Source: Acetohalobium arabaticum DSM 5501
GTDB taxonomy: Bacteria > Bacillota > Halanaerobiia > Halobacteroidales > Acetohalobiaceae
Reading direction: 5' to 3'
NCBI RefSeq assembly: GCF_000144695.1
Contig: NC_014378.1
Location: 186,001-250,000, forward strand
DNA: 64,000 bases
The notes under the pieces are model-generated. The model was not told the DNA's origin, did not search any database, and was given only the letters and a program-made list of their open reading frames with translations. The translations under genes and the position numbers were made by a program. This document shows positions 13,433 to 55,888 of the stretch, in pieces; the stretch's first letter is position 1; each line of letters starts with the position of its first letter.

Positions 13433-13493
13433 ATTTACTTATTTTCACAGTTAATTTGCTTAAAACATAATTGATATAATGTTGCAGTTTAGA

Positions 13494-13640
13494 GTTGATA
13501 TCTTGCAAACGCTCCAGAAATCAGTCCTAGTCACTTAGCAGTAAATAAATCTTAGTATTATGATTTAAAGATTCCGCTTTATATGTTAACTATTCTCTCT
13601 TGTGGGACTGCTTTAAAGTCGCTTTTTGCAAGATATCAAC
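13494..13640 (+). repeat. 147-bp inverted-repeat element, copy A
   Basis: Non-coding element with perfect 16-bp terminal inverted repeats (GTTGATATCTTGCAAA at 13494-13509 and its complement at 13625-13640). An inner pair CAGTCC/GGACTG lies near 13522 and 13606. The reverse complement of 37332-37477 aligns along the whole length at roughly three-quarters identity by eye, with both helices kept complementary although their sequences differ. Similarity extends about 25 bp upstream to a TATAAT at about 13475-13480. It could be a MITE-like element or a structured RNA gene. Confidence 0.8.
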
Positions 13641-13782
13641 TAAATTGTGCAAAATTATCTGAGGGAAAGCGTTAAAACCCAAACCAATGAAATTTCTGTT
13701 CTGTAATACCATAAATAGTCAATATATGCTTTCAATAACTCTCATTGGTGATAATCACAGCAATATATTTTATTATCAATAG
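13641..13782. other. Gene-free spacer between two repeat elements
   Basis: No credible gene. An ATAGTCAATAT sequence occurs twice (about 13715 and 13780), and CCAATGA at about 13684 is complementary to TCATTGG at about 13741. A 71-codon frame from 13745 to 13960 crosses the structured element that follows and is not believable as a protein. Confidence 0.5.
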
Positions 13783-13902
13783 TCAATATGTGTCCAGAGC
13801 GACTCTTAAAACTGGCCCGGAATCACGGACGATGGAGGGCCAGTTTTTGACAGTGAGTGAGACAGGATGTCGAACGAACGGCAAGCGGCGGATACATATT
13901 GA
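13783..13902 (+). ncRNA. Putative structured RNA, copy 1
   Basis: An outer helix pairs 13783-13795 with 13890-13902 (13 bp, one G-U). An inner helix pairs 13808-13818 with 13837-13847 (11 bp). Between them lie CGACTCTTAAA (13800-13810) and a 31-nt block at 13855-13885. Both blocks recur at 55162-55283, where the helices have different sequences but equal pairing. After the outer helix, ATATTG (13896-13901) can instead pair with CAATAT (13912-13917). I do not recognise the family. Confidence 0.75.
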
Positions 13903-14120
13903 TTATTCCCGCAATATCATGAATGAGATTATACCGATTATGATAGAAAATTACAAATAAAGGGTATATACGGAAACATTGTAGAGTGACACAATATATC
14001 AATAAAGCTGTAGATTTCCTCCTAAATTAACTCCTTGAAAATATTAAAATCAATTTAAGAATAATATTAATTAAATAACAGCAAATAATATAAGAAATAG
14101 ATTACTTAGGAGGATTAGCA
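13903..14120. other. AT-rich leader region before arginase
   Basis: About 220 bp without a recognisable gene. The last 100 bp are very AT-rich and probably hold the arginase promoter, but no clear -35/-10 pair stands out. AGGAGG at about 14109 is the arginase ribosome-binding site. Confidence 0.5.
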
Positions 14121-25399: not shown

Positions 25400-25755
25400 T
25401 TTGAATAGCAAGTAGATCTGAGAATAATCAATAAAATTTAGTAGTCAAAAGTGTTGAAAGGGGCAAGTAAGTTATTTAATTCTATCTTTAGCGAGCTGGG
25501 ATTGGTGAAAGCCAGCGATAGAAGGAATAATTGAAATCCCCCTGGAGCTGCAGATTGAACGGTGATTCCAAGTAGGTTGTGCCGGCTAGTATCCGTTATC
25601 CAGTACTGGAGTATGGAGCATATCTGAACTTTAGATATGTGAGTACTTACTAAGGCTATTGCTGTAAGGCAATGGCAAATTTGGGTGGTACCACGTGAGC
25701 TTAAACCTCTCGTCCCGATTAATGGAGTACATTAGTCAGGATGAGAGGTTTTTTT
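25400..25755 (+). promoter_or_regulatory. T-box leader, isoleucine specifier (ATC)
   Basis: Complete T-box. AGGG before GCA-AGTA pairs with CCCT, placing the specifier codon ATC at 25536-25538. A distal TTCTATC/GATAGAA helix and AGCTGGG..CCAGC follow. The antiterminator GGGTGGTACCACG is at 25683-25695. The terminator helix pairs AACCTCTC (from 25704) with GAGAGGTT (25743-25750) and ends in a T run. Low charged tRNA-Ile should open the ilvB-cimA operon. Confidence 0.88.
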
Positions 25756-53510: not shown

Positions 53511-53560
53511 GTGAACAAGAAAAGTGCTAGAAAATTAAACTACATAATATTCATCCCCTC

Positions 53561-53700
53561 AAAAAAGGCACACTTGCTGAAAAGTAAGGTCGCAAAGTCT
53601 TGAGTCTAAAGCATAAAGCCATGACTGTCGGACTGCTGAACTGGGAAGAAGTATGGCTAATTTCCCTATTTCTCATGCCTTGCTGAGGAATAGGGTTTAT
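53561..53700 (+). promoter_or_regulatory. Cyclic-di-GMP-I (GEMM-I) riboswitch with terminator
   Basis: Aptamer 53561-53638. Outer GGCA (53567-53570) pairs with TGCT (53634-53637). The first hairpin CTTGCT-GAAA-AGTAAG has the GNRA tetraloop typical of the class, followed by the conserved GGTCGCAAAG (53588-53597) and a second arm ending CATGACTGTCGGACTGC. A 12-bp terminator-like helix (53664-53675/53684-53695) with TTTATTTATTTT follows. This predicts c-di-GMP control of the kinase and pilus genes; direction (on or off) is not certain. Confidence 0.85.
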
Positions 53701-54911: not shown

Positions 54912-55100
54912 ATGCTTAATATCTTAAAGCGTTTACTCACAGAAGAAGATGGACAAGGTATGGTGGAGTATGGTTTGATTCTGGCTTTGATTGCTGTGGC
55001 AGTGGTTGCAGCATTAACTACTATGGGAGAGGATTTAACGACACTCTTTGAAAATATCACTGATGATTTAGGTGTTGGTGGTGGAGGTAGTGACGGTTAA
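54912..55100 (+). CDS. flp: Flp-type pilin
   Basis: Major pilin of a Tad pilus (62 aa). The prepilin motif is G14 followed by QGMVEYG, giving the required Glu at +5 (E19) and Tyr at +6, then a hydrophobic helix (LILALIAVAVVAALTTM). The C-terminus is Gly-rich (GVGGGGSDG). A large gap with structured elements follows, which may let pilin be made in excess of the machinery. Confidence 0.93.
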   Translation: MLNILKRLLTEEDGQGMVEYGLILALIAVAVVAALTTMGEDLTTLFENITDDLGVGGGGSDG

Positions 55101-55161
55101 TAAAATTAAATTAATAACGTGAAGAAGTAAGATGGGATTACAAGAAAAAATTAACTGAATT

Positions 55162-55283
55162 AATCAAAAGGTTTCAAAGACGACTCTTAAATTAGCCCGA
55201 AAACAGGATGTTGAGAGGGCTAATTTTGAGAATGAGTGAGACAGGAAGTCGAACGAATGGCAAGGGCTTGAAACCTTTTGATT
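55162..55283 (+). ncRNA. Putative structured RNA, copy 2
   Basis: The outer helix pairs 55162-55177 with 55268-55283 (16 bp, perfect), and the inner helix pairs 55189-55198 with 55217-55226 (10 bp). CGACTCTTAAA (55181-55191) and a 31-nt block (55234-55264) match copy 1 at 13783-13902, the block in 29 of 31 positions, while both helices have different sequences. CTTGAAA (55267-55273) can instead pair with TTTCAAG (55282-55288), a possible switch. It lies between flp and tadV. Confidence 0.75.
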
Positions 55284-55327
55284 TCAAGTTGCTCAGAAGT
55301 TTCTTAAAATTAATCTGCTGGAAGAAC

Positions 55328-55365
55328 TAAAGCCCTACTTGATATTAATATCAAGTAGGGCTTTA
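55328..55365. terminator. 38-bp perfect palindrome between flp and tadV
   Basis: TAAAGCCCTACTTGATATT is followed directly by its exact complement. Only three Ts follow, so termination would be partial. It may instead protect the flp transcript end or act as a processing site, giving more pilin than machinery. Confidence 0.7.
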
Positions 55366-55402: not shown

Positions 55403-55888
55403 ATGATGAATATATTATTGGGTATCATTTTAGCAGTAGCAATGTGGATTGATATTAAAGACAAGATTATTCCTAATTGGCTGACCTTTTCGTTGATGCT
55501 GTTGGGACTTATAATTAATCTATCTATAGACGGCTGGTCCGGATTATTATTTAGTCTGCAGGGCTTAGGAGTAGGTCTAGCTATCTTCTTAATTCCGTTT
55601 GTTCTCGGCGGTTTAGGGGCTGGTGATGTTAAATTAGTAGCGGGAATCGGAGCAGTCAAAGGAGTTAAGTTTGTGTTACTCGACTCGCTGGTAATTGCTA
55701 TAGTAGGAGGAATTATTTCGCTCTTTATTTTGATTCAAGAGAAGAAACTAGGTAGAATGATAAAAAAAGTAATCTATCGACTGCCGTTTAAAAGTCTATC
55801 CGACCGAGAAGACCAGGAGGGAAATGATGCTTTTCCTTATGGAGTAGCAGTAGCCTTCGGTACCTGGTATACATTATTTTTGCATTAG
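55403..55888 (+). CDS. tadV: Flp prepilin peptidase TadV/CpaA
   Basis: A24-family aspartic peptidase (161 aa) that processes Flp prepilin in the membrane. The two catalytic aspartates are in WIDIKDKIIPN near residue 17 and in the GxGD-type GAGDVKLVAG. It has four to five hydrophobic segments and lacks the methylase domain of PilD, as is normal for TadV. Confidence 0.92.
   Translation: MMNILLGIILAVAMWIDIKDKIIPNWLTFSLMLLGLIINLSIDGWSGLLFSLQGLGVGLAIFLIPFVLGGLGAGDVKLVAGIGAVKGVKFVLLDSLVIAIVGGIISLFILIQEKKLGRMIKKVIYRLPFKSLSDREDQEGNDAFPYGVAVAFGTWYTLFLH

Follow-up and report, generated by a model that had tools for sequence, protein, structure and literature searches.

The window analyzed here, a 64,000-nucleotide stretch within the single 2,469,596-bp contig of Acetohalobium arabaticum DSM 5501, contains a Tad pilus operon in which a structured RNA lies in the gap between the Flp pilin gene and a prepilin peptidase gene. 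The first-pass annotation had placed this RNA between the pilin and the machinery, and the siting was confirmed, with flp (PF04964) on one side and a leader peptidase gene (PF01478) on the other. The features of the gap, in window coordinates, are as follows.

54912 to 55100, + strand: flp pilin gene (PF04964, E 2.3e-12)
55101 to 55109, unstranded: left copy of the candidate target-site duplication, TAAAATTAA, an exact 9-bp match directly 3' of the flp stop codon
55110 to 55304, + strand: putative inserted unit of 195 bp with the RNA; 9-bp direct repeats at its bounds, and missing from the gap in three relatives (G001, G002, and G004)
55162 to 55283, + strand: structured RNA core, a three-way junction of P1, P2, and P3 (covariance model R1, 117.1 bits and E 1.4e-29 when this genome was searched; covariation in 41 homologues)
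55305 to 55313, unstranded: right copy of the candidate target-site duplication, TAAAATTAA, an exact 9-bp match
55329 to 55364, + strand: terminator-like hairpin 3' of the RNA and 5' of the prepilin peptidase gene, also in G001, G002, and G004
55403 to 55888, + strand: tadV-like prepilin peptidase gene (type IV leader peptidase; PF01478, E 4.8e-16)

A c-di-GMP-I riboswitch (53557 to 53640; 68.8 bits) precedes both a DegS-like kinase gene and the Tad operon. If transcribed, the RNA at this locus (copy 2) would probably be part of the flp message, with the Tad operon lying behind that riboswitch. The window also holds a T-box leader, at 25445 to 25720 (111.5 bits).

We regard it as near certain that the RNA structure is real. 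In copy 2 it comprises the following parts.

55162 to 55177, + strand: 5' arm of P1, AATCAAAAGGTTTCAA, pairing with 55268 to 55283 at a mean probability of 0.94
55268 to 55283, + strand: 3' arm of P1, TTGAAACCTTTTGATT, the partner of 55162 to 55177
55181 to 55190, + strand: conserved junction, CGACTCTTAA, near-invariant in the 41 homologues
55189 to 55226, + strand: P2 hairpin with a covarying stem and an apical C-AGGAU-G at 55204 to 55210
55232 to 55258, + strand: P3 hairpin with two tandem GA steps and an apical C-AGGAA-G at 55242 to 55248
55234 to 55235 with 55255 to 55256, and 55238 to 55239 with 55251 to 55252, + strand: the GA steps of P3, GA with GA in each case, in nearly invariant columns
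55259 to 55264, + strand: conserved GGCAAG 3' of P3 (first G and CAA in 41/41 homologues, second G in 34/41)

The perfect 16-bp outer helix described at the outset was thus borne out as P1, and the 141-nt fold has a z score of -4.0 that was equaled by no shuffle. In the alignment of 41 homologues, which was fitted to a model and whose counts therefore lean towards that model, 25 of 37 pairs carry changes on both sides, and the covariation score is 0.458 versus 0.196 in shuffles (0 of 500 shuffles reached 0.458). Cells were paired in 96% of cases, compared with 82.5% in shuffles and 32 to 43% when the partner was slid, and sliding also brought the covariation score down to 0.04 to 0.09. Sequences that are kin can beat shuffles without having any structure, but the slid controls keep this relatedness and nevertheless fall. 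G-U cells outnumber A-C cells (42 versus 6), which points to an RNA on this (+) strand.

Conservation within the RNA is concentrated in discrete parts. P3 follows the pattern AU-GA-GU-GA-GAC-loop-GUC-GA-AC-GA-AU, in which the Watson-Crick pairs flanking the GA steps covary (6 of 7 canonical P3 pairs are altered on both sides) and GA is almost fixed in alignment columns 80-81 and 84-85 and in the facing columns 98-99 and 102-103 (at column 85, 33/41 have A and 8/41 have G). The apical part of both P2 and P3 reads C-A(N)GGA-N-G; all 41 homologues have the loop A, the GA, and the closing C-G, the first G of GGA is present in 39/41 for P2 and in 40/41 for P3, and A may be separated from GGA by one N or adjoin it directly, giving 5- and 6-nt loop versions. 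The sequence of P1, on the other hand, is nearly free to vary across homologues as long as pairing is kept. The outer helix of copy 2, described earlier as unrelated to that of copy 1, therefore belongs to a feature that the whole family shares, as a further compensated version of it.

The first-pass annotation treated two copies; copies 1 (window 13779 to 13906) and 2 turn out to be 2 of 92 strong matches in this genome. A nucleotide search recovered at least 40 own-genome matches, and a covariance model made from 13 copies recovered 107 at E < 1, of which the strongest 92 (all with E below 1e-9, ca. 65 of them full length) were used for copy counts and analyses. By motif, 61 of these 92 retain both hairpins. 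Copy 2 groups with another copy in the same genome, L002 (97/95), and is hence one of the resident set. In four other Halobacteroidaceae genomes there are 28 further matches (1, 4, 16, and 7), and eight genomes of the sister family gave none in the same covariance-model search. Across a sample of the phylum, the RNA was found in 12 of 299 genomes, several distant ones included. A pattern scan of viral contigs returned a single match, in a GC-rich contig, which we took as chance. Relative to the downstream gene, 45 copies are codirected and 43 opposed; on the basis of this lack of preference, a role as a leader or cis element for neighboring genes was rejected.

Most other copies, copy 1 included, lie within non-coding repeats of 393 to 590 bp that start with TTGATATATTGT and finish with ACAATATATCAA. 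The repeat around copy 1 (window 13471 to 14002; ca. 532 bp, non-coding, with inverted ends) has four near-identical copies in the genome, at 199,779, 341,133, 1,597,762, and 1,628,127. Within 46 of these larger repeats, likeness was 0.84 in the RNA core versus 0.74 in the rest, with the outermost ends highest; with composition uncontrolled, this difference suggests that something favors retention of the core. Some larger repeats (e.g., L022) carry a second long stem, GTTGATATCTTGCAAA/TTTGCAAGATATCAAC, in their left part, and some hold two opposed RNA copies, such as those at 613,063 (-) and 613,254 (+).

How copy 2 came to lie behind flp is best seen in relatives, a comparison that the first-pass annotation had itself proposed. 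The RNA is missing from the flp-to-peptidase gap of G001 (same genus), G002, and G004, where we found no palindrome either, only the terminator-like hairpin. Once the 195-bp unit and one copy of TAAAATTAA are taken out, the A. arabaticum gap aligns with that of G001. A direct repeat of at least 9 bp arises in ca. 2.8% of shuffles of this AT-rich DNA. Between the flanks of copy 2 outside P1 there was no inverted match of at least 7 nt that could serve as terminal inverted repeats, and no repeat of the flanks outside the RNA was found elsewhere in the genome. RNAs of this kind are also seen in the distant genome G283, where they sit in discrete repeats of ca. 194 bp with inverted ends (ATGACTAT..., compared with ATTGATATATTGT for the ends of the copy 2 unit), and at several sites these are bounded by 9-bp duplications (their exact length of 9 bp was read off by eye), which the 9-bp repeat at copy 2 fits. 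Judged from these alignments, copy 2 is very probably an insertion at flp-tadV, and that it duplicated 9 bp of target immediately 3' of the flp stop codon is a well-supported reading. The first-pass annotation had also entertained an element that entered a palindrome already present at the locus, such that the arms of P1 would be host sequence. Of that proposal the insertion stands and the palindrome does not: the arms of copies 1 and 2 do differ, in line with a host origin, but arms are common within subfamilies, covary across the 41 homologues, and so belong to the element, and with the relatives' gap free of any palindrome we find this origin hardly credible.

As claimed earlier, CTTGAAA (55267 to 55273) and TTTCAAG (55282 to 55288) are exact complements. 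When the local 40 nt are shuffled, a 7-nt complement of this kind arises ca. 1% of the time. The equivalent alternative ascribed to copy 1 proved to be partly similar (ATATTG/CAATAT), differing in sequence and length, and partly similar matches recur in many other copies, at other sequences and lengths. From such pairing, and from the position of the RNA between flp and the prepilin peptidase gene, it had been proposed that P1 and the 55267-55288 hairpin are mutually exclusive states of a cis-acting Tad switch setting the ratio of pilin to machinery. The 7-bp alternative does exist, but its ensemble probability is 7e-6, and when forced it folds at -36.0 versus -43.4 kcal/mol; moreover, P1 would be complete before transcription reaches TTTCAAG. 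A thermodynamic switch was rejected on two grounds, namely, that the alternative is 7.4 kcal/mol worse and that the RNA is absent from the relatives' gap. The latter also speaks against any built-in control of pilin relative to machinery, as the gap lacks the RNA in three relatives and the terminator-like hairpin is kept in four of four species (A. arabaticum, G001, G002, and G004). This hairpin (55329 to 55364), which shows a compensatory change near its base, is a plain candidate for raising pilin over machinery, and a better one than the RNA, whose copies elsewhere have no preferred orientation. We consider a cis-acting switch very improbable on this evidence. A kinetic or protein-driven version is conceivable, and nothing points to one.

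What kind of RNA this is can be approached by comparison with known systems. At the gathering threshold, Rfam offered no family for it, and a permissive Rfam search around copy 2 gave chance matches only, mostly of miRNA models on the downstream hairpin. The closest resemblance is to TwoAYGGAY (RF01731), which has two tandem GAs in one stem and two matches to a CsrA-site model and was proposed as a CsrA-binding RNA, a prediction awaiting validation when published (PMC4333381). Searched with RF01731, the whole genome gave its best match in one of the present elements, at 26.1 bits over the full model, short of the 43-bit gathering score; no match to copy 2 emerged at E values up to 10, and L170 and L171 match both our model and RF01731, the latter below its cutoff. 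Both RNAs have a long variable outer stem, two inner hairpins, C-G-closed GGA-type apical loops, two tandem GA steps in one stem (here P3), and a conserved CGG...CAAG after the last hairpin. Unlike in TwoAYGGAY, the loops of copy 2 (AGGAU and AGGAA) are not AYGGAY, the P3 stem and junction sequences differ, and the RNA is borne by mobile repeats in dozens of copies. Loop sequences vary within the family: the P2 loops of many copies read AUGGAC or ACGGAY, the P3 loops are mostly AGGAN, and G283 has AUGGAU in both. Given the shared features and a best match of 26.1 bits under the cutoff of 43, we call the RNA TwoAYGGAY-like and not a member of that family.

CsrA-decoy RNAs are established in Gammaproteobacteria, and the known CsrA antagonist in Bacillota is a protein, FliW. 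Like the decoy RNAs CsrB, CsrC, and RsmX/Y/Z, the present RNA has repeated GGA hairpins of the CAGGA(U/A/C)G or ANGGAN type and probably would titrate CsrA; unlike them, it sets two hairpins in a fixed, covarying junction, exists as many dispersed copies with no single dedicated gene and no known promoter or terminator, and resides in a host of the Bacillota. With bacterial MITEs it shares small size, non-coding content, high copy number, inverted-repeat ends, and target duplications (9 bp in G283), but its body is a covarying RNA with loops resembling protein sites, and within the larger repeats this body is better conserved than what surrounds it.

The CsrA/RsmE site has been described as ANGGAN hexaloops and CAGGA(U/A/C)G repeats (PMC7652899), and the RNA presents GGA hairpin loops closed by C-G, in pairs, of the ANGGAN or CAGGA(U/A/C)G type. 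The genome encodes one CsrA, at 262,089, with L4 and R44. From reading their sequences, we take the open reading frames before and after csrA to be FliW and flagellin, respectively. CsrA is present in all 13 genomes of the order and in 10 of the 12 RNA-bearing genomes of the phylum sample; since ca. 70% of all sampled genomes have CsrA anyway, the latter figure amounts to no association. Strong RNA matches also occur in G051 and G093, two genomes of one family in which CsrA is absent and the weak CsrA hits lie in what is presumably an S1-domain-like protein. Several loops of G284, a genome that does have CsrA, carry no GGA and read CACGATG. It is mainly these observations that speak against CsrA as a universal partner. 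Our literature search turned up no relevant papers joining CsrA and MITEs.

On motif and resemblance, we lean slightly towards a CsrA-type function. Alternatively, the fold may be real and mobile and not act via CsrA, its core serving the element itself, for example, through a transposition protein that recognizes the folded strand or RNA or through protection of the transcript, with the GGA loops a feature of that role. In favor of this are the RNA without CsrA in G051 and G093, the GGA-less loops of G284, the higher conservation of the core than of the repeat flanks in mobile copies, and the fact that the conserved junction (CGACTCTTAA and GGCAAG) exceeds what CsrA binding needs. Against it, two separate loops share C-A(N)GGA-N-G, in the 5- and 6-nt forms that CsrA tolerates, on stems that change freely, and the combination of tandem GA and GGA loops is common to TwoAYGGAY, itself a proposed CsrA binder (PMC4333381). 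We rate an element-serving core as unlikely, though far from negligible.

Our preferred reading, to which we assign a probability of roughly 0.6, is that copy 2 is an inserted, MITE-like mobile unit of ca. 195 bp encoding a three-way-junction RNA with a CsrA-type decoy role. Accepting this, insertion of the unit would have duplicated 9 bp of target just past the flp stop codon, and its RNA would be transcribed within the 3' region of the flp message, ahead of the terminator-like hairpin that the relatives share. With C-A(N)GGA-N-G in each of its two apical loops, the RNA would offer CsrA two sites so placed that a single dimer could occupy both, and would thereby bring CsrA to the pilin transcript. 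Together, the dozens of copies that by chance come under transcription would form a distributed CsrA sink, acting as a decoy of the CsrB/RsmZ type and not as a switch. More tentatively, it is possible that a transposable repeat spreads CsrA decoys in this manner, each insertion placing a two-site CsrA trap into the transcript that it enters, that mobile DNA, by supplying more than a hundred binding hairpins, has rewired or buffered the CsrA-FliW circuit in this genome, and that related mobile decoys arose or traveled across Bacillota. The findings suggest that mobile elements can hand out regulator-binding sites. With covarying two-hairpin RNAs on mobile repeats, dozens of them intact, in a genome that has a CsrA-FliW locus, the CsrA question is directly testable.

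Several stand-alone RNA copies cluster within 19 kb of G000 (2,276,888 to 2,295,852), some with compensated P1 arms of their own (AUGCCUCU/AGAGGCAU and AUACCUCU/AGAGGUAU). Finally, in ca. 20 RNA copies (e.g., L016 and L018, and L078 and L080 in G004), the apical loop of P2 is split by an insert of ca. 120 nt. These inserts end in a hairpin like CATAGCCAGTATTGGTCTTTATGCTGGCTATG. Their occurrence across subfamilies, and in a further genus as well, gives the impression of a second element that targets the P2 hairpin loop.
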